Below are positions 21,601 to 62,650 of a stretch of DNA of 64,000 nucleotides, one piece after another. The notes below the pieces were generated by a model. That model searched no databases. It was not told the DNA's origin and was given only the letters and a program-made list of their open reading frames with translations. Origin of the DNA: Liolophura sinensis (Eukaryota; Mollusca; Polyplacophora; Chitonida; Chitonidae); NCBI RefSeq assembly GCF_032854445.1, contig NC_088297.1, positions 17,497,127 to 17,561,126 on the forward strand, in the 5' to 3' direction. Every line of letters starts with the position of its first letter. Positions within the stretch are counted from its first letter, which is position 1. The translations under genes were made by a program, and so were the position numbers.

Positions 21601-24600
21601 CAAGTGTTTTTAAAACAAATGTTACTAAAAATGTTACACTGTGTTACTCGCTCACACGAGCATCGTCCAACACTTACTGTCACTTAGGCCTCTACAAACA
21701 GTGAGAGTTGGTGAATCTATATATTCAATGTCAACGGCCAGGATTAACCCCACACCTCATGGCCGACCCAAAATTAAAGAATCAACAAACTAACCTTTGG
21801 CAGGTTTTCCAGATCTCCCTTGGCGACATCCTCGCTGATCCGTGTGTACAGCGAGATCATTTCTGTGGCGACTAAATGAAAGGCGTACGCCTTGGCCAGG
21901 TGTGGGAAAAGCTTGGACTGCTGTGTTTGGAAGTCCAGGACTTGGGGCTCCCTTTCTCTGAAAATATGATCAGTAATGTAAAATTTCATCCAAGACCAAG
22001 TAGCACATTTTGCCTTATTCTGACAGTTCTCCCGATCTTGGAAAGGTCTTTTACGGTTTGTTTGGAAATTAGCATGATATCCTCAGGGAAACTTGTAACT
22101 GTAAATACTAAAAGTATTCTTTAAGTATGTGTCAAAAATAACCTATTTTCTATAAAAATTCATAAAATCAAAGAGGAAGAAAAGAAAAGTATTTGGTATT
22201 TGTATTTTTTCTCAAATACATTTACATATCAGACTTTTTTCTAAATAATTAAATTTAGTTCAGTGTATTTACCCTAAAATCTCACAAAAAATACTCATTT
22301 TTCCTGATTTTGCAAGTTTTTCTATTGATCTTGAAAAGGTGCTTCATGGTTTGTTTGGAAGGTAGGACAATATCCTACAGAACAAGTCTCAGTCCCAAAG
22401 CAAATATTTTAAAACCTTTGGTATCCCCTAAAAATGCACTTTATTTTTTATGACAAATACATTATTAGACTTACTGAGGGTTAATTTTAGACTGTCGTCG
22501 CACGGCACTGTAGCGGATAGCAATGGTGCATGCCTGTTGCAGTGATCGTGCCATATCATAAACAATGTAACTTCGAATCAGCATCATGGAGCCATAAGTC
22601 AGTTTGTCGTACGCAAGTTTACGGAATGTACCATCTTTTTCCACCTAAAAATTAGATTATACCTGGATCAATTGATTAATTCGTGTTTACAGTCATACTG
22701 CAAGAATATTGATTTTCAGTTTCAAGTTGAAAGAAACCAGGATGTCCTGAGGTTCTCGTACGCAAATTTACGGAATGTACCATCTTTTTCCACCTAAAAA
22801 TTAGATTATACCTGAATCAATTGATTAATTCGTGTTTTACAGTCATACTGCAAGAATATTGATTTTCAGTTTCAGTTGAAAGAAACCAGGATGTCCTGAG
22901 GTTCTCGTACGCAAGTTTACGGAATGTACCATCTTTTTCCACCTAAAAGTTAGATTATACCTGGATCAATTGATTAATTCGTGTTTACAGTCATACTGCA
23001 AGAATATTGATTTCTGTTTCAAGTTGAAAGAAACCAGGATGTCCTGAGGTTCTTGTACACAAGTTTACGGAATGTACCATCTTTTTCCACTTAAAAATTA
23101 GATTATACCTGAATCAATTGATTAATTCGTGTTACAGTCATACTCAAGAATATTGATTTTCAGTTTCAAGTTGAAAGAAACCAGGATGTCCTGAGGTTCT
23201 TGTACACAAGTTTACGGAATGTACCATCTTTTTCCACTTAAAAATTAGATTATACCTGAATCAATTGATTAATTCGTGTTTACAGTCATACTCAAGAATA
23301 TTTATTTTTCAGTTTCAGGTGGAAAGAACCAGGATGTCTCCCTGAGGTTCTCGTATGCAAATTTACGGAATGTACCATCTTTTTCCACTTAAAAATTAGA
23401 TTATACCTGAATCAATTGATTAATTCGTGTTTACAGTCATACTCAAGAATATTTATTTTCAGTTTCAGGTGGAAAGAAACCAGGATGTCCTGAGGTTCTT
23501 GTACACAAGTTAACGGAATGTACCATCTTTTTCCACTTAAAAATTAGATTATACCTGGATCAATTGATTATTCGTGTTTACAGTCATACTCAAGAATATT
23601 TATTTTCAGTTTCAAGTGGAAAGAAACCAGGATGTGCTGAGTATCAACAGGATTCGATGTCAGAGATCGGAATTGGACGCACAATTTTCTATTTATTTGA
23701 TTGTGGTCAAGAATTTTTCTCTTCTCAACATTCAGTCTTATGGATTGAGGAAACCAAAGCTTTACAAAGCTTTAGACTTACCACAGCGTGTTTCATCAGC
23801 ATGTTCAGTCTGGGAACTCTGACATTATCCAGTTTAAGAAAACCATTATCAATGGCAGCATAGCCGAACTTTGGCCCGATATCACCCACCGTCACACCTG
23901 ATAACAAATGAAATACATGTACGTATGTACGTGTGCTTGGGATTTTACATCATACTTAACTTTTCAGTCACATGATTGATGAGTTATTGGTTGTGGTACA
24001 CTGCCTCTTATTGTCCAGGGCAACCATTGAAGTATCATGCTGAAGACTTCGGATTTGACACCCCACCCAGTCACATTTCACCGATACCTGGCCAACCAAT
24101 CCCACATGAAATTCAGGTACTCAAGGATAAGACAGAAGAATGTCGAAATTCTCAGTGGAATTGCTGAGCTGAAGCATATAGCCATCTTTAATACATAACT
24201 AAACCTTAATTTAAGGGATACAGAATCAATTCTGAGTGGTTTGTGTGAGAGTCCGGGCTATACCTTACCTAAACTCAATTTTAGGTACTTTACATTTATT
24301 CAAGGGCGACCAAGGCTGCAAGACTTAATTCAGGAAACCCTATTTCAATTGTCAGCCAATCAGGGTCGATTCTGTATTCCTTTAAACTTTTGACTGCATA
24401 AAATATAAACGCGAAATGATATCAAACGATTATGTTAATGACATTTTGCTTTTCCTTTGCACAGAAGAGTTGTATTTTAATCTTGCTGGTACCTTGCCCT
24501 AAAATGAAACCCTTTGCTGCTGTAGCTGTTCAAAAGAGTCTGGGATAAAAAAAGGGAACTTGCTAATTTTCGAGAAAGAAGAAAACACCAAACTGTGAGC

Positions 24601-27600
24601 TTGTTCGTTGGGTTTTTCTCGGTAGTAGTGAAGTGTTTGAAGACAATGCACAGTGACAGTTGTGGATGTAGGCCTTGTTTTTATCTGCAGAAATCACACG
24701 AAAGATACGCTTCTCGAGGATGGTGGTACGCTAGAAAGCGTTACACACTTGCTATTACCTCTGAGCACCCACCTAATCAAGACGCAAGATTTATTTATTT
24801 ATTTATTCATTTGATTGGTGTTTTACGCCGTACTCAAGGAATATTTCACTTATACGATGACGGACACCATTATGGTGGGAGGAAACCGGGCAGAGCCCGA
24901 GAAAAACCCACAACCATCCGCAGGTTGCTGGCAGACCTTCCCACATAAGGCCAGAGAGAAGCCAGAATGAGCCGGACTTGAGCTCACAGCCACTGCATTG
25001 GTGAGAGACTCCTGGGTCATTACGCTGTGCTAGCGCGCTAACCAACTGAGCCACGGAGGGCCCTCAAAACGAGGGACATGATGCCCAATCCATTTGGGGG
25101 TAGAACAACGCTGACATTTTGCATTTCAGGTCAGTGCAGTATGACAGCTACATGTATGTTCCCTTTATAATAGGGATCATTTCTGGCCTAAACACTCCTC
25201 CTTCTTGGGCTGTTTTGTTGTAGTACTCATACACTACATCTCTGCATCATGTGCACATTAACAAACAGTGACAGATTATAGAAAAACACACTGCTGCAAC
25301 CATCTAGTTCTAACACCATAAGCTGTGGCAACCACCGGAGACGCTGCCAATTCTGCATTTCTGTTAAAAGACCAGACTAGACGAAATATATACATGTATG
25401 TGCATTGATACAAAATACCCAAAATAAGTCCCACATACAGTTTAAAAAGCATACCTTATCATTTTTAGGACATTGCATAATCAAGATATCAGTTCAAATA
25501 AAGCAAAATCTTCCACACTGAGAAATTCTGTTGCACCACCATATTATTGGTTGTAACCAATGAGGAATGTGTTCTTTCTATTATCAGCTGTTTATTCCAA
25601 CGTCACGCGAAGCCTGAATTGCCTTGTAACCCTACAAGCGACATCATGATTCTGGTTTGTTTGACATGACAATATCTCATCGCCTAGCAAGGTTTCTGGA
25701 TTATAAGTTGATCTATAGAGTTATCTAAGCATGTCAGAACAAAATGTCTGTGGACATCTAAATTTGTTTAAACCCCTTTTTGAAATTTATTTATTTATTT
25801 ATTTGATTGATGTCCTAAAATGCTGTACTGAAGAATATTTCACGTACAGGACGGCGGCGAGCATTATGGTGAGAGGAAACCGGGCAGAGCCAAGGGGAAA
25901 CCCACGGACCATCCGCAGGTTGCTGGCAGACGTCCCACTTATGGCCAAATAGGAAGCCAGCATGATTCTATCTATAAATATAAATGCTCTGTCACTCACA
26001 TGGATAGAGACAAAGGCAAGTAGCCCAACTGCGCCATTGGGCAGCCACATCATTTTGCACGAAGATGTTGGTGTAATAGCCTAACACAAAAAAATCTGTG
26101 AAAGAAGTTGAACTGTATCTCCATGTATTCTGACCTGGCATTGGTTGGTGATTCTGGAGACTCCTAATCTGGACAATGATTGGGTACACTCCACAATGCT
26201 GCCCCCTGGTGTAAACCTGTGCCATGACAATGGCGTGGTTTGTTGTCTTCCCCACTGAAAAAGATGTCTTTAGTATTACATGTGTATCAGGACTTAAATA
26301 AACCACAGGGAATAAAAAGCAAGCTCACAGAAAAAGTATAGCCAGAATTTTAACACGAGGATTTTCAAAAACCTTATCTCTCAAAAGGGACATAACTGTG
26401 AAGTTAACCGTGATGATCCAGCCAAAGATATTCCCATGGAAAACCAGATTTGTTTAAACATGCTCTGAAAATGCAATTTCTTCATATTTCAAATTTTGTT
26501 CTACAAGACCCGACATCCTGCAACAACGTCATGACATGAGCAAATTGCGCTCAGAATAAATTATCGCTGTTGTTGTTTACATATTTTGATTTATTCATTT
26601 ATCTGACTGGAGTTTTCTGCCGTACTCAAAAACAGGCATAACTCTGACAAGACTTACAAGCTCCAGGCCACCATTTCATGGATGTGAGTGATGGAGTGTT
26701 CATCACAAACTCGTCTGTTTTAGGGTCAAAGGTTGCTGTAGTTTCTAATCCTCTTATGAATGTGCCTGATATATGAAAACAAAGAAGTCAATGTATGATA
26801 TGAACTGAGTTTAAAAAGCATTACAACTCTGGCGCCAATTGAATGACTTAAGTCAAAATTTGAAATGCAATCTTAATTCTTATATTTGGGCTTTAGAAAT
26901 TAAAATTTTGCAAACTTTATCAATGTTATATTGCTACAAATGCGTCCAAATTTCTAGCACTAAGAAAATCCGCATTGTACAGAATTTTTAAATTCTGACT
27001 TTAGAATCTGCCCCTGATGACAGTAATCATGCAAGGCTAGTTACAATTGTTCTCAGTATTAGTCAAGGAAAAGCTAAGCCCTGACTCCTTGCATACATCT
27101 GAAAGATCAGTGTTGACAGTGGAGGAAAACTGCTGACACAGTACATATTTCCAGCAAATTAAATCACATTTTGTTTTTTAAAGCAGTTATTTTTCTTTAA
27201 CACCCCTCCCCCCCCCCCCCCCCCCCCACCCCAGATGATATTGAAGAAATATCCATTCTGCCTGTAAAACAAAACAATTAAATCGGTGTGACCTAAAGGA
27301 GAGCTTCAGCTATACATACCATGACCCAGCTCCGTCTGAGCATAAGTCCCTATAATCTCCAGCCTGTTAGATCTGGGCACCCAATGATTCACTTGCTCCT
27401 TTGTGCCCATGCCTTGAAGGGTCTGCAAGAACATGCTGAAATGCAAACCTAATGGGCTCCCCTCATGTGCAGTGGCTGCACTGAAACATGAATATATGAC
27501 CAACATTTATACAAAGATGACACTTCAGTGGAGTTTGAAGCTCAGAAAAAATTTCACTTTGCATGACACCAATAAGTTTTAAGGGCAGAGGAAATATCAG

Positions 27601-30600
27601 GCAACATAGGAAAAGAGCACACCTAACCAGATACTTGTGTGACAAGGCAACCTGTTAGGTTGGATTTGATCTAACGACCTTTAGGTTTTGATTCCACACT
27701 TCTACCACTAAACTAAAGGGAAATTCCCTCTATCCCGAAGATAGATACAGCGCTTACATATGACAAAGTCCTTCCCAAAGTATAGAAGACTGAACTTAAG
27801 CTACCCCAACTCTTCCCACCTCTGACACCAGAATGTAACCCATACTGGAAGGGAGGGCAGAGAAAACATGCAACACTGCTCTTAACGTGCAACAACCATT
27901 TTCCCTCTCCCCTTAAACCTAACTCGCCTCAAGTGCCAAGTGCTTTCCCTAGAACGGGGAAGATCACCCCTCCAGCCCCAAGCTAGAGTTAAAATCACAC
28001 TATTTGCAATGATGAACTAACCAAAAGATTGCAGTTAAATGACCTTTAAAATGTATTTTAACTGAGGTTTTAGGGGACTACATTTCACTTCTATGCCTGA
28101 CAACAGTCAACTTCATTGCTGGGAGAAACCTCTGTTAAACCACCAAACATCACCAGGCACCTGACCTTTACAATGCATATGCCTACTGATAGGTGTTTTG
28201 CCTCAAATTCAGGTACTTATATATTTCACTTCCATCACTGACAACTGTCAGGTTCATGGGTGAAAGAAACTACACGTAACCAGGTACACCTTTAATTGAT
28301 TTATTTATTTGATTTGTGTTTCACGCCGTACTCAAGAATATTTCACTTATACGACGGCAGCCAGCATTATGGTGGGTGGAAACTGGGCACAGCCCGGGGG
28401 AAACCCACGACCATCCGCAGGTTGCTGTCACACCTTCCCACGTATGGCCGGAGAGGAAGCCAGCATGAGCTGGACTTGAACTCACAGCGACCACATTGGT
28501 GAGAGACTCCTGGGTCAAAAACTGTGCTAGCGCACTAACCAACTGAGCCACGAAGGCCCCCCTCCTCTGTTATTTTAGAAGAGGGGTTGCAGCAGACCTA
28601 TTTAATGACAACAGCCTTATTTCTCTGGTCAGACGTACTTGATGATTCTATAATTATCTTTACATTAACAAAAAATTCTTATGAGGCTAGGGGATCTGCC
28701 ATATTAAAACGAATGAATGAATGTTTCCGGTTTAATGTCGCACTTAACAATTTTTCAGTCAGATGATGATGAGGAGTCATTATGTACATGTATGTGTACA
28801 TATATTGTGTCTTCTTGTGAAAAGGTGAGTTCTTGCCACCAAAGTACTGCTGCCACAGAATAGGTACCATACGAAAGACACCAAACATGACACCCCATCC
28901 AATCACGTTATACTGACACCGGGCTAACTAGTCATGTTTGCACTAACATCTCAGTATTAAGTATATAGTGCTAAGCTCATATACAGCTGGCACTAATGAT
29001 TTTCTACTGGTTGACTGATTGATTGTAGTTACAACCTTCTGCCGTGCTCAACAATTCTTCACGCTTCAGAAGGCAGGTTACACAAAAGAAACACAAAGGT
29101 CTAAATGTGCACTTTTTGTCGTCTTTTAACTGTAACCTGTCGGTTATACATCACCTAAGTAAAGGGATCGCTTCGGTGGCCTAATGTTAGAGCATCAGAA
29201 GATCTGGTATCAAATCTGTGTAATACGAAACGCTTTTTGATACCAAAAAAGGCACTTGTTGCTGCCTCAATTGACACTCAGCACTGAGAGATTAGAGCAA
29301 AGAAACAGGACTGGTTGGCCCAGTGTCAGTATAATGTGACAGGGTGTTTGGTGTCTTTCATATGGTACTATTTCTGTGGCAGCAGTACTTTGGTGACACT
29401 GACACAAGAATATACTGTACATGTACAGACACCTAAATGACTTGTTGCCATCATCACTGAAAAATTGTACTACACAAAAACCCAAGCATGCATCATAAAT
29501 AGGTATTAACAGGTGTGCTGTTCAAACTTAGTGCAGGTTGATTAGACATTTCCTTTAGGTGTACTTTCCCTGCACTTACTAATTGAAGATCGCCACCTCG
29601 TAAGGGTCTGTGAGGTTGAGCTCTTTGATCCGGTTCTGCAGGTAGACGGCTTTACGCATGCTCTCCGAGTAAGCCTCATCCCGTGTCAGGTAAGTAAACT
29701 TCTTCTGACGAATCTTGTGATCCGACAACGCCAAGTTCTCTGATACACAGAGCAGAGACATGTATGCCACAAACTGGCTACCTGTGCACGTTGGCCTGCA
29801 TCTAGCATTTACAGAACCTAGCCATTAATTTTAATGCATGTAAATTTATTCATTTACTGAATTATTGTTGAGCACCTTAATCAGGGCTTTTTCACTTATG
29901 ATAGCCAGATTAACAAGTGGAGGAACCAGAATGCTCTGGGGTAAAACCACTGACCTTTGGCCAGAAACTTTCCCATGTACACGTATGACATACTAAAATG
30001 CATGCCCGAGTTACAGACCAACCCCATTGAGCTTTAAACCAATAGCCTTTATCAGGAAAGTATATTTATTTCTTTATTTCATTGGTGTTTTACGCCTATT
30101 CTGTGGTGGCCAGCATTATAGTGGGAGGAAACTGGGCCAGGTTCAAACCCATGACCATCTGCAGGCTGCTGAAAAATCTTCCCACATATGGCTAGGAAGG
30201 TATAGCATGAACTTCTAGACCTCGACCACTTGGTACATGACAAGTGTGCAAACAGCCACGTACGCATCAATGACCAGCTAAATTTATTTTGCCAATCCTC
30301 CCAGCATGTACTTCTTGTTTGTGTCATATAATTGAAATATTCTCGCAGTAAAACTCATAAGAACTCCAATCCAATAAATTAAAAACTTAACTTACTGTCA
30401 ACCACAAACAATGAGACAGGGTTCGTGCAGGTATATGAAAATGAAATTCAAGGAGTTTTCAAGGAGTTTTTTTGTCATTTTCAAGGTTTTCAATGCTTCA
30501 ATTTGCATTCATGTATATTGAATAGTATGCTTGCTTTTGCAAGAAATATCTGCCCTTCACCTACATGTATATAATAATGCGACACATTCTTTGATCTGGC

Positions 30601-37200: not shown

Positions 37201-40200
37201 ACCAAAAAAAATAAAATTAAAAAATAAAAAAAATTGTTTATAATTTTTGTGGTGACAAAATAGTCAGTATATAGATTATTCAAATCAGTGTAGCTTCATT
37301 TTACGATTGATCGATATAATACGCTATTTTACATGCAATACACGGCTTCGGTGACCTAATTGCTAGAGTATCAGCCTCAGAGTCGGGAGACCAGTGATCA
37401 AACATGGATCAGCTCATACCAATGTCTTTAAAAATAGTACTTGTTGCTGTCTCGCTTGGCACTCAGCACGGAAATATTAGAACAAGGAAACAGGACTGGT
37501 TGGCCATGTGTCAGTATAATGTGACTGGGTGGGGTGCCATGTCTGGTGTCTTCTGTATGATACTTCAGTGACGGCAGCACTTAGGCAGCATGGACTCGCC
37601 CTGCCACATGAACACACAGTATATATATACACACGTCTAATGACGACTCTACATTAACGTTAAACCCCAAGCACTTATCCATTCATTCTTCATGCAGTAA
37701 GTTTATAATTTCTTGCGGCAGTCATAAAGATGGCTACGAAGTTTTCACAGCTTGGAAGAGACAATGGTCATCCAACTCCAAGACGGAGGCCAGCATCCGC
37801 GGCCTTCATGATGGACCAGGTATTACCCTACTGGGTGCAGTGCACTCTTCCGGGCTGTGGCAAGTGGCGACAACTCTCAAGAGACCTGGAACTCTCCCCC
37901 AACTTCATTCGACGCTACACCTGTGGTATGAGTGCCCAGGGGTCAAGGTAGGTGAAGTCCATGTTAGTATGGGAATTTGAAGTTATGACTTGTGACTTCG
38001 TTGGTGCAGTTTACACCATTTTAGAGCTAACTTGTGCAAATTCTTAAGAAAAAAAAGTTGAGAAAAAAAAGTTATCTTTTGTGGATGGTTTTTCATTACT
38101 GTATATACTCATCCATGAGAAGATACATTGCTTTGCCTCAACAAGTCGCACAGTGGTAATGTCATGGAAGAAAGGGACATAACCATGGTTTTGAAACATC
38201 ACAATTTTCCTGTTCTGAACACTGTGCTGACCTTCACATAGATTGATACAGGCCTACATGGTTATTGTTGAGCGTGTGATTTTCACACCCTTTCGCAGAA
38301 CACAAGGGGTGTGATTTACACACCTACGCGTACATACATTCTTCTCAGAGTTGTGATTATGTTAGGTGTGTCAAGAGTGCGAAGAGAGTGACAGCACATG
38401 TCAGATTTGAAGTCCAGGTATGATTAGGCTTGTACTGTACATGTACATATGTGGCCATTTTGATCTTAGAGTTTCCACACAAGTGAAAATGTGGCCAAGC
38501 GTGCTAGCGCGGCATAGTGACCCAGGAGCCTGTCACTAATCCAGCTGTGATGAGTTAAAGTCCTGCTTATGCTGACTTCCTCTCTCACTATACATGGGAA
38601 TGTCTGTAATTACCTGCAGATAGTCATGGGTTTCTCTTGCGCTCTGCTCAGTTTCCAGCAACCTGCGGATGGTCGTGGGTTGTCCCCAGGTTCTGCCCGG
38701 TTTCCTCCCTCCATAATGCTGGCAGCCATTGCATAAAGGGAAATATTCTTGAGTACGGCATAAAACTCAAATCAGATAAGTAAATAAATAAGTAAATAAA
38801 TAAATCCAACCAGATAAATAATATGAATAATAAAAGAAAACTGGGCTGATGAAGAATAAAGGAAACAAATTATTGGCATTCTGGTAACTGTTGTGAAATA
38901 TTTGGTTTCAGAATGAGAAACAAGCTGAAAACTGTGGAAGGCTTGAAGATGAGGTAAGTTCTTCACAGGTTACTCTGGATGCAGTTTTTCCCTAAGAAAG
39001 CATTCCGTTCCCATTTCTATTTCTTTTATTTCTAGCTGCTCTCAAAGAAATACAATGTTTGTCTTCAGTCAGGTTAATCTATGCTGCATTTGCCAACTGG
39101 TAGAGTGTAAACATGCTTTATGGCAAGCAGGGAGTGTTCAGTTCTGAGTCAGGCCGTATAGATCTAAGACTATAAATCAGCATCGAACTTAATAATCAAC
39201 TGGAGGCAACAGGCCAATAACTGATTGCTCGGTATCAGCCATGGCAGGGCTGTTCTACATGCCTTCGGTAAGTTGTCTCGGTGAAGCAACCACTAGATAA
39301 AAGGGCAGTGGAAATCCGTCCTTCAACAGGGAGGCACAGTACATGCACTCTAAGGAATCCTTCATCGTCTTATGACTGAAAAATTGTTAAGTACGATGTT
39401 AAACCCCCAAGCCACTGGACTCACTCACTCTTCTTTCATTAGAGACAGAGATGTATTTCAGTATGTATACATACTTTAGTCATGTTTCCAAGCATTTGAA
39501 TCAGCATCATTACTTTTTGTCTTTTTTTTTTTTTTCTGCCGTCTTTAGAGAGCAACAAATATGAGGAATGCAGCATGGTGGGAACTCCAGCTTCTCCCAT
39601 CATTCCTCAGGAAGTCTCCAGCCATTGAATACCTGGGGCCTCATTTTTCCGGGACCGTGTTGGGATGTCACCATGTGACGAAGCCTTCCTAGAACATGCT
39701 GAAGGCAAAGCTGGTGAGGATCACTTGTCAAGTTTGATTCTGAAATGCTAAACTTTTTACACTTTGTGTAATGAAAAAGCATGCAGTAATTTTCAATTCC
39801 ATTCAATGCTTGAAACCTTGGAAAGTTTCTCTCTTGTTTCTCGACTTTCAATTTTCTTCGATATTCCAGTTATGCTTTCACCATTTTACCACCCATTTAA
39901 CCATCTACTTTTCTCTCTGAAAACACTATTTTAAGGCTATTTTAAGGATCAGTTTATGTTTTATGCATTCACATGTTCAACATATGTACATGTGTAAATA
40001 CTGAAAGACTTCAACTACCTTACTGAATTTAAGAGTGTATTTCTTTCCTAAACCATCCTTGTGGTCACATTTTCTGAGCTGTATGCATGTTTTTTTTTGT
40101 TTTGTTTTGTTTTTTCTGACAGTGTTGCATGATTTTTTATTCTATCTCAAATTTCAAGCTTTCCCTTCAGAATTGTCCTAGGGCAATAGATGAATATTTT

Positions 40201-43200
40201 CCAAATCTCAATATGCAAATTAGCTACTGAAGGAGTTTGAAATCAGGTTTTCTTGACAGGTACATTGTTTGAAAATGTGTTTGAATCACCAAAGTGATTA
40301 GGTTAAAGAACTTTTGATTATTCAGATAGACTGGTAGTCAGTTATCTTTTAACGGAAAGGTCTATAAATTTGTCTTTTATTGTAATTGATTTGTGTAACT
40401 CTGTGTTCAGAACTACCAGAATCAGACTCCATTATCCAGCCATTCGCCATTTCTGTGGAGCCAATGAGAGCACAGAGTTTTGACCCGGCAGCCATGTTGT
40501 CTATGGAGGAGATGGAATTCCCTGGCTATGTGCGGGAACCAGTCATGTACCTTGGTCTCAGGAACTTGGTCGTTGCTCTGTGGGCCAACAATGTCACAGT
40601 AAGTTTTTATGCAAATTCATTACTTTTTACCTGTTTTTGTATTCGGTAGGTGACTAAAAATTTCGTCCATGCATTAAGTTGTGAAATTTTCCTGAAGCTA
40701 AGAGTTGTATTGATATTTGAAAGGTGTTTTAAGGTTTGTTTGGAAGGTAGGATGATGTCCCACTGGAAATATATAGGTTTCAGCACCAGAAGTAATGTTT
40801 TATGACATTTGACCTCTAAAAATGCACTTTCCCAGGCCAAATTTTAGCTCATTAAGTTTTAATTGATTACCCGCCTATGTATGTTGGCTTAAAGTGAAAG
40901 GCAGCACCTGTCTAATGTTTATGTCCACTGAAGGACTATCATTCAAAGTGTCTTAAACCGTCATTAATTTTTTTTTTTTTTCAATTTTCTTCACCTATCC
41001 CACATCACTGTGTGAAATGGGCCTTCGGCTATACGTAAACAAATCATTGTAAATGATGTCTTATGCAGTAACTCACATGTGTTATCACATGTCACTTCAC
41101 GGAGTGAATGGGTAAAGGCTATGTCACAGCTTAGGCTGCTCAGGGAGGTAGAATAGATGGAGGCACAACTATGAGGCTTCACAGTGTTCAGTATACATTA
41201 CCAACACCGCGGGAGCTGCTCTCTGGACAGGAGATAGCTGTCTAGCTCCGTCAGACCTAGGTGCATGCACTCTGGAGGCTGTTGCAGAGGAGCAGCCAGG
41301 ACATGTTTGTTTTTAATAAAGACTATGATAAGCTTGCAGAGATCTGCTGACAATGCCAGTAAATTTGTGTACTTCTGTTTGTGTTTTTTTTGGGGGGTGA
41401 AATTAAAATAAATAAATGTTTTGAACATCAATGGAAGTTGTATATTTGCGAATAAGCAGGCCAAGAAGACAAAGAAAGGACTGACTAGCATCTTGATCTT
41501 GGACTCGCATGAACAAAGCAGGAAATACATGTAGGCCTACATGTGTAATGTTAAAGTTGCTATCAAAATAGTGTGAGTTGTTGATGGTTCTGTAATCAGG
41601 GTCCGTTATGCCCTCTATGCAATAATACACAAAATCTCCAGGAATTATAGGGTCTATGTGATTACAAATGTTGATCTACAGTGACTGAATTTATCAACTT
41701 ATTGTATAAGATTCGGTAAATCTGATAATTTACATGTTTGTTTGTGATCGATGCATTCCTATTGCTGGGGCCTCCGTGACTCAGTTGGTTAGTGCGCTAG
41801 CGCAGTGTAATGACCCAGGAGTTTCTCACCAGTGGGGTCGCTGTGAGTTCAAGTCCAGCTCATGCTGGCTTCCTCTCCGGCAGTACATGGGAAGGTCTGC
41901 CAGCAACCTGCAGATGTTCGTGGGTTTCCCCCAGGCTCTGCCCGGTTTCCGCCCACCATAATGCTGGCTGCCATCGTATAAGTGAAATATTCTTGAGTAC
42001 GGCATAAAACACAAATCAAATAAATAAATAAATAAATGCATTCCTACTGGTTTGTCTAGTTCAGTTTGGAACAAACTCGAGGTAGTGGTCATTATTTTAT
42101 ATATTATTATCCATTACGGAGTTTTGTATTCAACACTAAGGAAAATGGATTTTGTAAGCTTTGCAACAAGAATTGCATGCTGTGTCCAAGTTCTGTTGGA
42201 CAATAAGAGTTATGTTAATTTTCAACCTTTTCACATCTGAAATAGCAATGTATGCATATTTGTTACTTGATTTTGGAGACAGATCTACATCGGCCATTTT
42301 CAGGGCTTCACAAAAGTATAATATTATCAGTCTTAACAAAATAATGCCCTCAGCATTTACTTGAGTAAACACCTTGAACCTCCTGCGAAAAGATTGAAGA
42401 ATTACAGTTGTCACTTTATAGCTTCTGCACCTGATGCATATTCACCGGACAAACTTTGATAGACATGATGAATATCACTGCTGCAAATTACATTCATGAC
42501 AGAGACATAAACCTGAAGAGCGAAAGAAGAAAGATCTTGTGGAAAAAATTCTGGCAAAAATAAAATTATGTAAACTTTGAAAAGCTGCATTTGCTGATTT
42601 GTTTCGTATTTATTTCAGGAGCGAGTATCCCTTGAGCGCTGTGTCCCTCACATTATCTGCCGAGGGATCGCACGGTTGCACTACGTTCAAGCTGCAGAGC
42701 GCATCATATCCTTCCTTACCAGACAAGGGTACATCAACTGTGGTTTACTCAGCCCTTCCGAGGAGCCTGCACTTCTGCCAAAGGAACACAGTCAGGTAGC
42801 AGCTTATTGGAAGTGCAAATCCACTCTTTGTTGCCTCCAAGATATTTTTAATATTAAACTAGCTATATCTTGAATTGCAAAGAAAAGATAGAAGTGGAGC
42901 AGGCATCATTTGACAGACCATTACAACTTTTTTTATGAAAATACCAAAATAAATACTGATGCTCTATACAGATTCTTCCCTTTATATCCGACTGTTCTGT
43001 TGTACAGGAAATGGTTGCTGTTATAGGAGCAGGCCCAGCAGGACTGGCTGCTGCAAGACATCTTAACAGTCTGGGGGCCAAGGTTAGTACTTAAACTGTG
43101 CGTATTTCCGTTTAACAATTCCTTGTAAAAGTTTTGGTGTTACCACTATATCTGCAGAGGCGTAGAAAATTTGCTCAGAAACAAGTCATGTTGCTTTAGA

Positions 43201-46200
43201 ATATGCAGAATTATGCCCCTTTTTGGGATATATTGGCGAAGCCTCTGTGACCTTGTGGGTTTTTTTGGGTTTTTTTTTTTTTCGAGTGGGTGTTTTACGC
43301 CGTACTCAAGAATATTTCACTTATACGACGGCGGCCAGCATTATGGTGGGTGGAAACCGGGCAGAGCCCGGGGAAACCCACGACCATCCGCAGGTTGCTG
43401 GTAAAATACAACAAGTAAACAAGTAAAATATTCTTGAGCACGGCGTAAAACACCAATCAAATAAATAAACAAATAATGGTGGCTGTCATTGTTTAAGTTC
43501 AATTATTCCTAGGGTACGTCGTAAAACTCCAGTCAGATAAATAATTAAAAATAATCCTGTCCATTTCTGTCATCAACACTTGCATGTAACCGGATTTCAT
43601 TGCTATTAATTATGTCATTAATTATTCACTGTGCCTTGTGCTTGACGAGCATTTCTTGAGACCCAGAACACTGTTGATTTTGCTGCACAGGTGATTGTTT
43701 TGGAAGCACGAGACAGGATAGGTGGTCGAGTCTGGGACGTGGAAAGCCTGGGTCAGGCTGTAGGGAAAGGGGCACAGATGATCATCGGGGACATTAACAA
43801 CCCCATAACTCTGATCTGTCAACAGGTGAGTCACACACAGTGTAAATGTAGGGGGTCAGGGCCAGACTGTGGACAAAGGGACACAGATGATCATGGGAGA
43901 CATTAACAACCCCATAACTCTGATCTGCCAACAGGTGAGTCGCACACAATGTAAATGTCGGGGGTAAGGGACAGAGTGTGGACAAAGAGACACAGATGAT
44001 GATGGGAGACATTAACAACCCCATAACTCTGATCTGCCAACAGGTGAGTCGCACACAGTGTAAATGTAGGGGGTCAGGGCCAAGCTGTGGACAAAGGGAC
44101 ACAGATGATCATCGGGGACATTAACAACCCCATAACTCTGATCTGTCAACAGGTGAGTCACACACAGTGTAAATGTTGGGGTCAGTGACAGAGTGTGGAC
44201 AAAGGGGACACAGATGATCATGGGAGACATTAACAACCCATAACTCTGATCTGCCAACAGGTGAGTCGCACACAATGTAAATGTCGGGGGTAAGGGACAG
44301 AGTGTGGACAAAGAGACACAGATGATGATGGGAGACATTAACAACCCCATAACTCTGATCTGCCAACAGGTGAGTCGCACACAGTGTAAATGTAGGGGTC
44401 AGGGCCAAGCTGTGGACAAAGGGACACAGATGATCATCGGGGACATTAACAACCCCATAACACTTATCTGTCAACAGGTGAGTCACACACAGTGTAAATG
44501 TTGGGGGTCAGGGCCAGACTGTGAACAAAGGGACACAGATGATCATGGGGGACATTAACAACCCATAACTCTGATCTTTCAACAGGTGAGTCACACACAG
44601 TGTAAATGTAGGGGGTCAGGGCCAGACTGTGGACCAAAGGGGACACAGATGATCATGGGGGACATTAACAACCCCATAACTCTGATCTGTCAACAGGTAA
44701 GTCACACACAGTGTAAATGTTGGGGGTCAGTGACAGAGTGTGGACAAAGGGACACAGATGATCATGGGAGACATTAACAACCCCATAACACTGATCTGTC
44801 AACAGGTGAGTCAGACACAGTGTAAATGTAGGGGGTCAGAGACAGACTCTGCACAAGTGGGTACACATGATCATGGGGGGACATTAATAACCCCATAACT
44901 CTGATCTGTCAACAGGTGAGTCACACACAGTGTAAATGTAGAGGGGTCAGGGACAGAGTGTAGACAAAGGGACACAGATGAGCATGGGAGACATTAACAA
45001 CCCCATAACTCTGATCTGTCAACAGGTGAGTCACACACAGTGTAAATCTCGGGGGTAAGGGACAGAGTGTGGACAAAGAGACAGAGGTTTCTCCATGCTG
45101 TGCTAAGTGGATGAAAAATTCACAAGAAATTGTATGTGATAACTGGTTGCTATAGTAGCCCAGATTCACCGAAAAATCATGAGGTGCTGTTATATAATAC
45201 ATATATGCATTTTAAACAGGAAAAATGTGATTAAAAGAGGAAAATTACTGTGTTCAACTTTTTTTTTTTATTATATCCGTGTTAATGGCTGAGTGAGTAA
45301 ACATCTATAGAAATACAATCATTTTACTGTTAGGCAACACCAACTTTATTTTTTTTTTTTATGGACAAACCGACACCAAAAAATCCAAAAGCGGAAATAA
45401 AACTGAAAATGCACCTTTTTATTTTTGTCCTATCTTGGTTTATTTATGATTTTTCCTGTTTTTCAAGGCATTCCTGATCATGTATATATCATGATATCAT
45501 GATCCTGTCATCAACAACAAGACAAATGCATATGCTGGGTCAGTCCTCACTTCTCACAGATTAGACGATTTTCAGCTTTTAATTTTATACCCTTTAAAGA
45601 CAGATTTTGAAGATTTATTTTGACCATAAAAAGACAATTTAAAGTAGTGTAGCCTTACTTTTCTTCAATCTTTTATAGTTCACCCTGTGATCATGGCGCG
45701 ATGTGTTTGTGTGTTCAGACAGGAGTACCGATGAAGCGAGTAAAGGACCGATGTGACCTCTTCACAAGCTGTGGCAAGTGTGTGGAAACACAGACAAACA
45801 CAGACGGACAAACGGATTGACTTCCACTTCAATGCCATGCTCGATATCATCGCTGAGTGGCGGAAAAAACAAAGACAAAACTGCCCGATGTGGATCTGCT
45901 GCGTGAGTATGTGGATGTGTGTTAGGTGAAGACACCTGTGAAATAATGTCAACACTGGTGCATCTAAGTATAGGTGTTTATGGACGGATGTATAGACCAA
46001 TAGAAGCATGGTGTGGACATGTTATCCTAGTATGTGGATTTGTGTTAAATGTAAGAATATAAAAGCTGTAATAAAAGGTTGTAAACTCTGATGGACTATG
46101 TAAACAGAGTACTGAAAAGTGTAAACACATTATTTAAAAGAAAAGTGGAAATACACCAGTAGGAGAGTGCAAACACTTATACAAGTGAATACACTGATGG

Positions 46201-49200
46201 AAAAAATGGATACACACTCATTATCAAGTGGACACACACTTATGGAAAAATGTAGACACCCAGTATTGTAAACACTTAAATAGACAAGTGAATGCACTGA
46301 TGGAAAAATGGAAACACGCCAATTATCAAAGTGGACACACACTTATGGAAAAATGTAGACACACAGTATTGTAAACACATTAATAGGTAAGTGAATGCAC
46401 TGGTGAAAATGGAAACACACTAATTATCAAGTGGACACACTCTTATGGAAGAATTTAAACACACAGTAATTGTAAACACATTAATAAACAAGTGAATGTA
46501 GTGATGGAAAAATGGAAACACAGTATTGTGAACACATTAATAGGTAAGTGAATGCTCTGATTATCAAGTGGACACACACTTATGGAAAAATGTAGACACA
46601 CAGTATTGTAAACACATTAATAGACAAGTGAATGCACTGATGAAAAAAATGGAAACACACTAATTATCAACTGGAAACACTCTTATGGAAGAATGTAAAC
46701 ACACAGTATTGTAAACACTTAAATAGACAAGTGAATGCACTGATGGAAAAATGGAAACACGCCAATTATCAAGTGGAAAGACACTTATGAAAGAATGTAA
46801 GCACACTATTGGCAAAAAATTATTAAGCGCTTCACTGGAAGACTGGAAACACATTTGACACACTCCAGAAGAAAAATGTTGTCCACACCTCACAACAATA
46901 CCATAGCACAGTTGCGTCGTTTTGCGGAGAAAGTGCATCTGTGTCTGGTCACATACAAACCGAGGAAGAACAGTAAGGCACTAAATTGTGTTTTTGTTCT
47001 GCAGGAATCATGAGGAAATTATTATTTTATGTAATATCATTTCATTAAGCTTTGATTTCTTCTGGGAAAAACTTTAGGATGAATTATGAAGGTCTTTTTT
47101 TTGGGGGGGGGGGGGTTGTTTTGTTTTGCTATTGTATAGATAATTTAAAAAAAAAAACATATGTATGATCATTCAGCATCTTTGTCGAAATTCTAAAAAC
47201 AGCAGCATAATTATCAAGTTGTGTGTTTTTGTTGTAGAGAAAATTTGGGAAAAACATCAGCAGTTCATGGAGGAATCTCAAATGGAGTTCACAGAGGTAG
47301 GGTGTCTGGTGTTTTCAGACTTTGGCTCATGGCTAAGTTTTTCAGACCACTTGGTTGATATAATGGCCAGAGCATTCGCATCGAACTCTGGAGACGACAG
47401 TGATCAAACCCATGCTTGATCATACCAAAGACATTAAAAATTGTACTTGTTGCTGACTTCCTTGGTGCTCAGCATTAAGAGGTTAGCGCAAGGAGACAGG
47501 ACTGGTTGGTCTGGTGTTAGTATAATGTGGCCAGGTGGTGTGTGACTGGTTAGGGTGTCATGTCTGGTGTCTTCAGCATGATAATTCAGCGCGGCAGCAC
47601 TTTAGTGGCGTAGACTCTTCCTGCCACAAAACGACACTGCATGTAAACACACACCTGGTGACTTTTCGACATCATATGACTGAACAACAGTCAAGTACAA
47701 TATTAAAACCAAAGCATACATGATGTACATACATATACAAAAAAATTCTGTGGTATAGCACTAAAAAACATTGGTAAAATCCATAATTCAGTTAATTATT
47801 GTCATATGTATGGCGTGATTGTTGTCTTGATGTTATTCTGTATTAAAGCAGCCATGAACTAGCCTTTCAGATTGTTATATTAGAACATCTAGTTTTACAA
47901 TTCATAATTTATTTTTCTTTTCGTTAGTGCTTTGATTGTTGTCTTGATGTTATTTTGTATTAAAGCAGCCATGAACCTAGCTTTTCAGATTGTTATATTA
48001 GAACATCTAGCTTTACAATTCATAATTTATTTTTTCTTTTCGTTAGTGCTATCTTCCGATTTTAAAAACAGTACTAATTCTTGAGACAATAAATGTGATT
48101 GTGTGATTATGGCTTATAACACCACAGTCACTCTCTGAGTCATTCTGCTTGAGGAGCTGCATGGTATCATAAACCAAAAAAAATATTTTTGTAAGAATGG
48201 TTGCATTACTAGGTGTTGCAACATAGCATTTTGTCAATTTTGGTGCATCTTTCAATGGCATGTATTTATATGACGTATATGGGCCCAACCATTTAGGATT
48301 TTTGTTGCATTGTTTGCATGACTAATTAATGTCAACCAATCGCTTTTATGTTTACATAGTTGGTTCAGTAGTTGATTCCAACCAATCAGATTTTGTGTAA
48401 CATTTGCTTTAGGAAGAGACCCAAGCGCTACAGTTCCACATCAGTAACCTGGAGTTCGCATGTGGGGCACCTCTGGACAAGGTCTCAGCGCTGTACTGGG
48501 ACCAAAACGAGAGCTTCCCGCAGTTCGCAGGGTCACACGTCTTCATCCAAGGCTGGCATTCAAAAATACTCACAACAGTAGCTGATGGATTGGATGTGAG
48601 GTTAAATACAGAGGTATTTGGAATCTTCAAATGCTGACAAATTGGTTACAACCTGGATTGAGGGCTAAATTGTGTTAGATACCCTGAATGACCAACAAAT
48701 TTCATCCATTTTGAGATTCTGAGAGTTCTGTGGAGTTAAGGATGGTGTTTTGAGGTTTGCTTGGGAACATGGATGATATTTTACTGGGAAAATGTAAGTT
48801 CAGCACCAAAAATAATATTTGTGACATTTATATACCTGCACTTTTGTGGGCAAAAGTGAGGTCATTTAGGTATTTATTATTTATTAAATTTAACGACAGC
48901 AATCAGTGTAGGAGTGTAGAGAGCCTGGTGTAAACTGTCGACCTTTGGCAAGTCACTGACAATCTTTTCCACCTTTGTGCATGGATGCATGTTGACGTCA
49001 TGAAGGAAATGAAAACACAGAATTGATTTCCAAAATCAGATGAAAGACCCATTTGCAAATATGGTTTTTAATTGTTTTTTTTATTTTGCAAGTAAAAAGG
49101 GTATTTGAAAAATATTTTGTATGGTGGGTAATTTGGACCACCTTTTGGCATTCATAGTTGTTGCATAATAGTGTTCTAAATATGATGTGATGCATGTCTA

Positions 49201-52200
49201 ATAAATATATTGATTGTACATTTGTTGGTATATCCAAACATAGTATTTAATCTGAATTATGACAGTATTTATGAATATATTAAAAATATGAATATGATCA
49301 AAATCAAGGCTTAACAACATTTGTTAGCTGAAAAGACCAAATTCAAGTGTATACGTTTGTTAAGCATGTCTTACATACTCGTTTATAACATTATTACACA
49401 AAGACTATATGTACCAAAGGTGATCAAAATACCCAAATACAAAATTTTTTTTGAAGTTTAACTATCATATTTACAACTAACTTTTGCATTCTACCATCTG
49501 AACTTAAGTAATTTTTACATTTCTCCCACCTTTAAAGATATGACATTGTCAAAAAGTGTTGTCCACTCTCTTGGTTTTTATTTGAAGAGTGGTGAAAAAA
49601 AAATGTGTATGACGTTTTAGAAAAGCATTTATTGTTGCTGAAAGCGAAATATTTGTAAGGACATGCTAAATAAGCCACTTGAACGATATGCTTGATGAGC
49701 CACTTGAACGATATGTTTAATAAGCCACTTGAACAATATGCTTATTAAGCCACTTGAATGATAATCTTTAAGTATTTTTCCTTCCAGGTAGTCAAGATAG
49801 ATTACTCTTCTGACTTGATCTCCATAGCAACGGACCAGCGGCGAGACCTTCACAGCAGTAAGGTTACAATGGTGTCTCTTGTGCGAACTGATTGCTTTGA
49901 GCTTTCATATTTTAAAAGTCCTTAATAGGTGTCTTCTTAAGTAATCAAGACTTACAATCTCCAACCAGTAGGAAACAATGAACTAAAGAATGATAAAAAT
50001 AAAAAAAAAAAAAAAAGAACACACTGGTGATAAATTTGTAAATAGATAAAGAAGTTTTTCAAGGCATGTTGCAGCTGATTTTTTTTTTTTTTTTTTTTGT
50101 ATAGTATTTTAATCCCATGCTTACATGAGACTAACCTACAATCAACTATCTACAATGTAAAAAAACAACTTGATCAATCAGAAAAAGGAGCACGTTACTG
50201 TGGTGTGGGAGTTGTCAGGGATTATCTTTATTGCAGTTGTCATGGACAGTATTAATCAGCAAAGAATGTGCAGATGATAAAAGATAAGACCTGGGCAATT
50301 CTCTGCAAGGGAGAAATATAGTATCATAAAACAAGCATAAGCAGTGAAACAGATTTGAATGTACATGTATAATAGTGCGTGTAAAGTGTGTTAGCTGGGG
50401 AATAAAAAATGTATAGATAACACCTTTAGCCACCGGCAAATTGTGCCTGGGTCAGTACAGGATTTATCAAAATCTAGTATTAAACAAAGTTATAGGCACT
50501 TTTCATGATTGACGCAGTGTTTCTCTCCCAGCTTACATCTGTGGACATAAATAAAGATCAATCTGCTATAGAGGTTGCTTGTGAAGCTCTCTGAAGACTC
50601 ATGACCCAGGGATGACCACATTCTAGCCAGGTCGTCCTCAGTCCAAATTAAAATCAGATTAACAGGGTAATCCTATCCCAATCTGTCACCCTTTGGTTAC
50701 TCAATAATACTTCCCAAGTGTGGTCCGATTTTGTGTGCAGGTTAACTTTGTGACACCTAAAATCAATTTTAATACCACAGTCTGTGAAACAGTTTTGTGG
50801 ACCGGTATGTTGTAGTGGGGAATTTCATTTTTCTCACAATCCATTGGTTTCTGTGAAATAATTACCCTAAGTATGGTTCAAATTTAATTCAAGTTCAATT
50901 TTATGTGCAGGTTCGTTTTGTGAAATCTCAGCTTAAGTTTAAAAATCAGCCAAATCCGTTCACATTAAGCTTTGCTGTTAGCAATGAGACCCTAGCTCTA
51001 ATTTTACGTGTTTAGCTAGGGATTTTATATCTCTGAATTGGGGTGTTTTCTTTAACAGGTCCTTGTCACATTGCCCTTGGGAGTACTGAAGAGAGACAAG
51101 ACTTTATTTACACCCCTACTACCTGAGCACAAACAGCTAGCCATCTCAAAGCCTAGGAACAGGCGTCATAGAAAAAGTGGGTTATCTCCCTTTATGGTCT
51201 GCAGTTATTTGTCAACTTTTTCTTGTCCATAACTCTTGAAAATTGAAGAAGGCTTCATGGACTGTTATTGCATTCATAACAGTTTCAACAGTAGACTAGG
51301 TTCATGATTTGCTTGTTCCAAAGTCAGTAGGTAACATCAAGAATTAAGGGATGTGAAAAATACAAAAAGCTTCCGTAAACCAACAGAAAATATAGTCTTT
51401 AACACATCGCTTTGGCGGTAAACATGAACATTTTTGTGTAGGAAGTTTCCAAACAGGTTAGGCACAGTGACCCTTCTCACCAATGTGGTTGCGATGAGTT
51501 CGAGTCCAGCTCGTCCTGTCTTCCTCTTCGGCTGTGCATGGGAAGGTCTGCCAGCAACCTGCGGGATGGTAGTGGGTTTCCCCCGGGCTCTGCTTGGTTT
51601 CCTCCCATCATAATGCTGGCCACCATTGTACATATATAAGTGAAATATTCTTGTAAAAAACTCTGGTTAGCCCCTCAATAGATCCATTAGGAGTTAACCA
51701 TGTATGTTTCCATTGTCTCTGCTTGCTAATGGAATGGTTGGTTTTTTTTTTTTGTTGCTTGTTTCCTGCGCCACAGGTTGCTTTACAGTTTCCAACCAAG
51801 TTCTGGGAGTCCAAGATGAAAGGTTCCATGGTGTTTGGTCAGATTCCAGTCTCACCTGATCAGCGCGGTCTATTTAACGTCTTCTATGATCTCACAACAG
51901 TCACACAGGTGATTAAACTTTGTACATTAAAGATGTACTCAAAGACATTTAATGCAATCATGATCAAAACAGATAAAGATCACATCATTTTCGTTCTCAT
52001 ATGAATCTTGAACTAATCATGTAAATTGCAAATAAAAAAGAAATATCTTGGAAAAAACAAAAGAAATCTGATGGACATACCGAGATAATTTATACATTGC
52101 TGCCTTACTGAAATGCCATGATATAGACACCAAACATGACACCATATAAAGTCACAATATACTAATACTGGTCCAACCAGTACTTGTAAACTTGCTTGGT

Positions 52201-62382: not shown

Positions 62383-62650
62383 TTATGTATTGATTTATTT
62401 ATTTGATTGGCGTTTTACGCCGTACTCAAGAATATTTCACTTATACGACGGTTGCCAGCATTATGGTGGGAGGAAACCGGGCAGAGTCCCGGGGAAACCC
62501 ACGACCATCCGCAGGTTGCTGCAAGACCTTCCCACGTACGGCCGGAGAGGAAGCCAGCATGAGCTGGACTTAAACTCACAGCATTGGTGAGAGACTCCTG
62601 GGCCATTACGCTGCGCCAGCGTGCTAACCAACTGAGCCACGGAGGCCCTC
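62383..62650 (-). repeat. MetaSINE-type SINE, full length and well preserved
   Basis: Runs from tatttatttgattggcgttt to tgagccacggaggccct. The B-box region has lost about nine bases compared with other copies. Confidence 0.93.

Follow-up and report, generated by a model that had tools for sequence, protein, structure and literature searches.

Mirage minisatellites, a little-known kind of repeat, have been described in lancelets, where tandem repeats extend across exon-intron borders in Adh3, the globin genes BflGb6 and BflGb9, and TnC, with a similar case in PGBD5. Unit length varies between 10 and 160 bp, AG/GT is present in many units, and two haplotypes of one lancelet globin gene are described as differing in mirage copy number (PMC3087553, PMC3902484). 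Reverse-transcription PCR of globin and Adh3 suggested that splicing is undisturbed by the repeats (PMC3087553). Among the candidate papers listed, the two mirage reports that we recognised both concern lancelets. Here we describe an array of this kind in the chiton Liolophura sinensis, within a 64,000-nucleotide stretch of contig NC_088297.1 (the window), in which 12 consensus 5’ splice sites (donors) stand in a row after one exon of the KDM1B gene. We consider this array to be a passive mirage minisatellite in a broken gene, with a probability of about 0.8. The assembly was built from 14x PacBio high-fidelity (HiFi) reads and Omni-C data with haplotypic duplications removed, and was published as Liolophura japonica (PMC11068029); a correction reassigns it to L. 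sinensis (PMC12441733).

The array at the KDM1B exon border

Tandem Repeats Finder (TRF) reports a single tandem array with a period of 109, 12.1 copies, 89% matches and a score of 2083 (Table 1). When the 12 units were aligned, each was found to carry one donor, CAACAG/GTRAGT (the slash marks the splice border), with the GT at positions 43826, 43935, 44044, 44153, 44261, 44370, 44478, 44586, 44697, 44806, 44916 and 45026, that is, at a donor-to-donor spacing of 108-111 bp. The donor word is GTGAGT in 11 of the 12 units and GTAAGT in the remaining one (44697), and AG/GT is present in all 12. The first copy is the end of a coding exon whose translation ends in LICQQ, and the tblastn piece over this exon shows 58% identity to human KDM1B. 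About 76 nt of this exon end (70 of 76 bases identical in a local alignment) form the repeat unit together with the start of the intron. The acceptor AG that follows the array lies at 45717-45718, and the intron that contains the array is 1,893 nt long. A preliminary description of this DNA had proposed both the row of 12 consensus donors at this spacing and its tandem origin from a KDM1B exon end; the first is borne out by the TRF array and the aligned units, and the second by the match of the exon to KDM1B and the presence of its last ~76 nt in the unit.

Identity between units is 82-99% (mean 89.5%), and a three-unit higher-order pattern is visible, with 97% identity between units 2 and 5 and 99% between units 3 and 6. 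In a search of the genome (632 contigs, 609,464,459 bases), a three-unit DNA query gave five matches, all at the KDM1B locus and none elsewhere, and all nine matches to the array-bordering exon as a protein query were at the same locus. Since the repeat unit is confined to the KDM1B locus, insertion of a dispersed repeat is unsupported; chance origin of the donor row is ruled out by the 12 units and the TRF score.

These features are consistent with a tandem duplication that would once have covered the 3’ end of the KDM1B exon and the start of the intron (~76 nt and ~33 nt, respectively). Expansion to 12 copies, partly in three-unit blocks, could then have occurred by unequal exchange or replication slippage, and the extra donors would be passengers of the repeat unit rather than selected sites. 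Of the 12, the first donor is nearest to the acceptor upstream and would normally be the one that ends the exon; the remaining 11 would be spliced out as part of the intron, and a transcript occasionally made from one of them would run into an immediate stop.

The predicted cost of using an extra donor is the same for all of them. When the exon was joined to the next exon via each of the 11 extra donors, all 11 predicted products ended at one common codon, the in-frame TAA listed in Table 1, which falls inside the first retained unit, 71 residues from the start of the array-bordering exon. The retained lengths are divisible by three in 3 of the 11 cases, but frame-neutral isoforms from these donors are ruled out, as every product ends at the common stop. 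Because this stop sits in the first retained unit, unit length is irrelevant to the predicted products. The argument of the preliminary description from a unit length that shifts the frame is therefore unsupported.

Donor conservation and the state of KDM1B

Across the 12 units of the KDM1B array, 75 of the 109 consensus columns are invariant, and GT is equalled in invariance by 52 of the 109 two-base windows. We also applied iterative nhmmer, as a second method, to this array and to six other donor arrays from the same genome (see below), all seven chosen by the donor word AG/GTRAGT, on which the seed units were centred. In all seven, GT was conserved no better than the unit as a whole: dinucleotides conserved at least as well as GT numbered 59/105 in KDM1B, 55/85 in the SUFU array, 28/35 in the fucosidase array, 33/38 in the CIAO3-like array, 31/56 in the BMS1/TSR1 array, 65/105 in the WD-repeat array and 47/95 in the POLR3B array. 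GT was lost in 25 of the 94 CIAO3-like units, all of which kept AG, and in 15 of the 66 fucosidase units, 51 of which kept AG. Selection that maintains the donors is unsupported in the case of GT and ambiguous in the case of the longer AG/GTRAGT block.

Several observations weigh against the interpretation of the array as a passive repeat. In the KDM1B array, the 12-nt block CAACAG/GTRAGT ranks within the 2 least variable of 109 windows of equal size, and the 9-nt donor within the 9 least variable of 109. By iterative nhmmer, the 8-nt AG/GTRAGT block was above the median conservation in all seven arrays; octamers conserved at least as well numbered 23/99 (KDM1B), 20/79 (SUFU), 9/29 (fucosidase), 7/32 (CIAO3-like), 4/50 (BMS1/TSR1), 44/99 (WD-repeat) and 17/89 (POLR3B). 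The high rank of this block may reflect either ascertainment or weak constraint, and because of it our confidence in a passive array is slightly lowered. Use of the first donor is a prediction from the DNA, and the frame breaks described below could still be assembly errors at 14x HiFi coverage.

The AG/GT in each unit also raises the question of zero-length recursive splicing, by which a downstream donor, once used, would be re-spliced from the preceding donor, and the row would be removed stepwise and harmlessly. Ratchet points are described as juxtaposed acceptor and donor sites (PMC8605326), an arrangement seen in all 12 units, and the stretch preceding the AG is 56-67% pyrimidine, compared with 56-72% at six KDM1B acceptors (with four of these six windows offset by 1-2 bases). 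However, 24% of all AGs in the window reach an equal pyrimidine content, the intron is short, and GT has been lost from many of the CIAO3-like and fucosidase units. We regard recursive splicing as unlikely.

The KDM1B gene itself appears to be disrupted. As judged by tblastn and translation, four frame breaks fall in three exons other than the array-bordering exon, with tblastn pieces in differing frames within each (37722-37947, presumably the zinc-finger part of KDM1B; 45719-45902; and 51059-51176), so that the open reading frame across exons expected of a functional KDM1B was not found. The exon that follows the array reads in phase 0, then in phase 1, and then in phase 0 again at LPDVDLLR, with a TGA in phase 0. 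Its first break is a 10-bp tandem duplication (45786-45805), which is unlikely to be a base-calling error, and its second is in an A-rich stretch near 45865. Because this exon stops in phase 0, the first donor also gives no full protein. No GT/AG pair was seen at the breaks when the sequence was read by eye, which argues against splicing as their explanation. Neither of two control genes showed a frame change within an exon, whether ACOX1 in the same window (12 tblastn pieces) or KDM1A in the same genome (18 pieces); stop codons in three control pieces (one of ACOX1, two of KDM1A) were read as run-on into introns.

A second copy of KDM1B was not found in the genome search with two exons as queries, with a small doubt remaining. 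The amine-oxidase exon used as one of these queries (48413-48634) had one other match in the genome, at the KDM1A locus with 48% identity, and an amine-oxidase family search gave 46 exon matches that were not identified individually, which limits the finding of no second copy. In this chiton KDM1B, a histone demethylase gene, is therefore a candidate for a unitary pseudogene. Its loss would have a parallel in the annelid D. gyrociliatus, from which KDM1B is reported to be absent (PMC12153100).

The state of the gene bears directly on whether the array could be a row of regulatory or decoy donors, with choice among the 12 tuning the amount of productive KDM1B mRNA via decay-prone transcripts. 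All 12 donors fit the consensus, all 11 alternatives run straight into an in-frame stop, as would be expected if they formed a poison switch, and the 8-nt donor block ranks above the unit median in every array. Against these points stand the four frame breaks in other exons, which leave the first donor, too, without a full protein product; the conservation of GT, which does not exceed that of the remaining unit either in KDM1B or in the six further arrays; and the commonness of similar rows in the genome. Given these breaks, and a search that found no second copy, there is hardly a full KDM1B protein for donor choice to regulate, and we find this explanation very improbable. The regulatory use suggested in the preliminary description is thus not supported, given the state of the gene, and the unusual retention of donors on which it drew is not seen at the level of GT. 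Its fallback, a passive minisatellite, is the better reading.

There is likewise only a very small chance of an assembly or read artefact, that is, a copy number collapsed or inflated in assembly, or frame breaks produced by consensus errors: the 14x HiFi data with a mean read of 8,347 bp and ~1.2% heterozygosity (PMC11068029) leave some room for one, but the 1.3-kb array lies well within an average read, the units differ at many sites instead of forming identical blocks, and the control genes ACOX1 and KDM1A are free of frame changes within exons.

Donor rows elsewhere in the genome and other repeats of the window

The KDM1B array, read as a passive repeat whose host gene is broken, is chiefly of value as an entry point to a wider pattern. 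Similar donor rows are abundant in the genome, which rules out an arrangement unique to KDM1B. Three copies of CAGGTGAGT at gaps of 90-120 occurred 617 times, compared with 58 times for the reversed word, and single sites numbered 10,120 and 2,743, respectively, a 3.7-fold difference. One interpretation is that chiton 5’ splice sites are hot spots of tandem duplication, such that mirage arrays would now occupy about 1 in 8 strong-donor loci, in some cases with tens of consensus donors and also in genes expected to be essential, and the spliceosome would routinely have to settle on the first donor in a long series of near-identical ones. We offer this interpretation tentatively and place it somewhat below even odds. 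By eye, we counted 13 triple-donor arrays for CAGGTGAGT and 3 for the reversed word among the places listed on C1 as far as 88.4 Mb; because this ratio is close to that of the single sites, a strong hot spot is disfavoured and the odds of any hot spot are lowered.

We also counted array loci, defined as three or more sites with gaps of at most 1 kb, among the first 100 listed sites per word, on C1 alone. For CAGGTGAGT, whose first 100 sites cover 5.27 Mb, 8 of 57 loci were arrays, and for CAGGTAAGT 5 of 46. Three control words gave 3/87, 2/95 and 3/69 array loci, one of the last three being the decayed CIAO3-like donor array itself, and an acceptor-like word gave 2/66. By Fisher tests, CAGGTGAGT differed from the single controls with p values of 0.026, 0.006 and 0.065 and from the acceptor-like word with 0.043, and CAGGTAAGT differed from the three pooled controls with 0.035. 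With both donor words pooled (13/103 loci, compared with 8/251 for controls) the p value was 0.0019, although the controls were picked afterwards and a genic bias remains in the counts. That arrays may be over-represented at 5’ splice sites is a lead and not a result.

The exon ends that carry such arrays were examined at 18 loci, comprising the eight CAGGTGAGT arrays and ten more from the listed places on C1 (after omission of one near-duplicate place and of two that the first eight already included). For 15 of the 18 loci, open frames that end at the first donor were submitted to Pfam, and a family match with E <0.001 was obtained in five: SUFU (1.8e-9), the Fe-only hydrogenase C-terminal family (1.8e-12), at a locus that we take to be CIAO3-like, the Tsr1/BMS1 C-terminal family (4.5e-11) and, below the Pfam cut-off, alpha-L-fucosidase (5.4e-4) and Rpb2 domain 2 (2.8e-4). 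The last of these is the POLR3B locus, which also matched RNA polymerase III RPC2 in PDB (1.1e-15). A sixth locus is a WD repeat, with PDB matches to a designed WD protein (1.9e-14) and to PWP1 (0.084). Outside support as exon ends thus exists for 6 of the 18 loci; the lack of it at the other 12 does not exclude short exons. Most candidate exons upstream of arrays had no match in Pfam, and three had none in PDB. Among the five CAGGTAAGT arrays, three had upstream frames of at least 18 residues, and the four frames taken from these had no Pfam match. A candidate exon at L012 may be KATNIP-like; it had no Pfam match and only weak helical-repeat matches in PDB. In six of the seven arrays analysed (KDM1B and five of the six supported loci) 26-93 nt from the end of the exon form part of the unit, whereas in the fucosidase array the repeat starts in the intron.

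At the alpha-L-fucosidase-like locus (L014, C1:5263500-5269500), a cluster of 37 strong donors follows directly on the exon, with repeat units of 38 bp that contain a pyrimidine-rich stretch, and at the CIAO3-like locus (L025, C1:5471400-5475900) a 94-unit array lies 3’ of the exon. A 53/114-bp array in KDM1A (L006:1240-1926) begins ~20 bases or less from a donor.

The presence of many donor rows in one mollusc genome, some at the exon ends of conserved genes, is of more interest than the KDM1B array itself. Housekeeping genes with exons that end in rows of consensus donors offer a natural experiment on how the spliceosome chooses among near-identical donors. If 5’ splice sites are indeed hot spots, mirages would be a recurrent mutational product of splice borders and no peculiarity of lancelets, and would provide a standing reservoir for new introns and isoforms.

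The window holds a second array that crosses a splice border, at the acceptor of an ACOX1 exon (Table 1), and this is a mirror case of the KDM1B donor array. TTTTAG/GTGG is kept in the three of its seven copies nearest the exon, the real acceptor included, and the four distal copies have TTTTAA/GTGG. Within KDM1B, a 25 bp x 4 array (49663-49763) stops just 5’ of a probable exon that was recognised by eye and has no tblastn match. A dispersed element that appears similar to a short interspersed nuclear element occurs on both strands (e.g., 24815-25060, 25832-25960, 28300-28500, 38536-38766, 41826-42113, 43251-43418 and 62394-62590), with similar spurious peptides in several frames.

Table 1. 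Features of the window discussed in the text, in window coordinates
Feature	Position	Strand	Basis
Second array, seven 148-bp copies spanning the acceptor of the ACOX1 exon at 22477-22644 (minus strand)	22607..23641	-	Sequence, tblastn
KDM1B exon, frame change near 37796	37722..37947	+	tblastn pieces in frames 1 and 2; borders read from sequence
KDM1B exon (exon 10 of the preliminary description), source of the repeat unit	43691..43825	+	Acceptor AG 43689-43690, donor GT 43826-43827; tblastn, translation, sequence
109-bp mirage-type minisatellite, 12 units each with CAACAG/GTRAGT	43766..45083	+	TRF, unit alignment, genome search
In-frame TAA reached by predicted transcripts from any of the 11 downstream donors	43904..43906	+	Open frame 43646-43906; 11/11 predicted products
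KDM1B exon after the array, frame broken twice	45719..45902	+	tblastn, translation; donor read from sequence
Open stretch with KDM1B amine-oxidase exon, used for copy number and identity	48413..48634	+	PDB LSD2/KDM1B, E 3.3e-17
KDM1B exon, frame change near 51149	51059..51176	+	tblastn pieces in frames 2 and 3; borders read from sequence

Comparison with known systems

The KDM1B array has the sequence features of a mirage: a genuine exon-intron border is covered by the repeat unit (~76 nt from the exon, the donor and the start of the intron), the units are minisatellite-sized (109 bp) with high but imperfect identity (82-99%), and AG/GT is found in 12 of 12. As in lancelets, the first copy is joined to a real exon. 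In contrast to the lancelet cases, the host is a mollusc, there are 12 copies and the gene is broken; normal splicing and length polymorphism are reported for lancelets, whereas the chiton array was read from one assembly. The chiton arrays also look numerous, with up to dozens of donors. The KDM1B array extends lancelet mirages to a mollusc.

Recursive splice sites are similar in that AG/GT makes acceptor and donor coincide, but the KDM1B intron is short, its repeated GT is without clear constraint, and what we know of it comes from genomic sequence. A route to new introns through tandemly duplicated AGGT segments has been discussed with reference to Rogers 1989, Hellsten 2011, 24-bp arrays in fission yeast and an RNA-dependent RNA polymerase gene (RdRp) of potato (PMC4974935). 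The tandem AG/GT copies in KDM1B likewise create candidate donor/acceptor pairs; however, it was an existing intron border that was copied, and the extra copies lie downstream of the exon’s own donor within an existing intron, with no new intron shown in formerly continuous coding sequence.

In the passages that describe the intron minisatellites of earthworm metallothionein genes, no exon-border repeat is found (PMC12783039). The KDM1B array resembles an ordinary intronic minisatellite in its head-to-tail units, its higher-order blocks and its unit turnover, and differs from one in having been seeded across an exon border, so that an exon end and a donor are carried in each unit.
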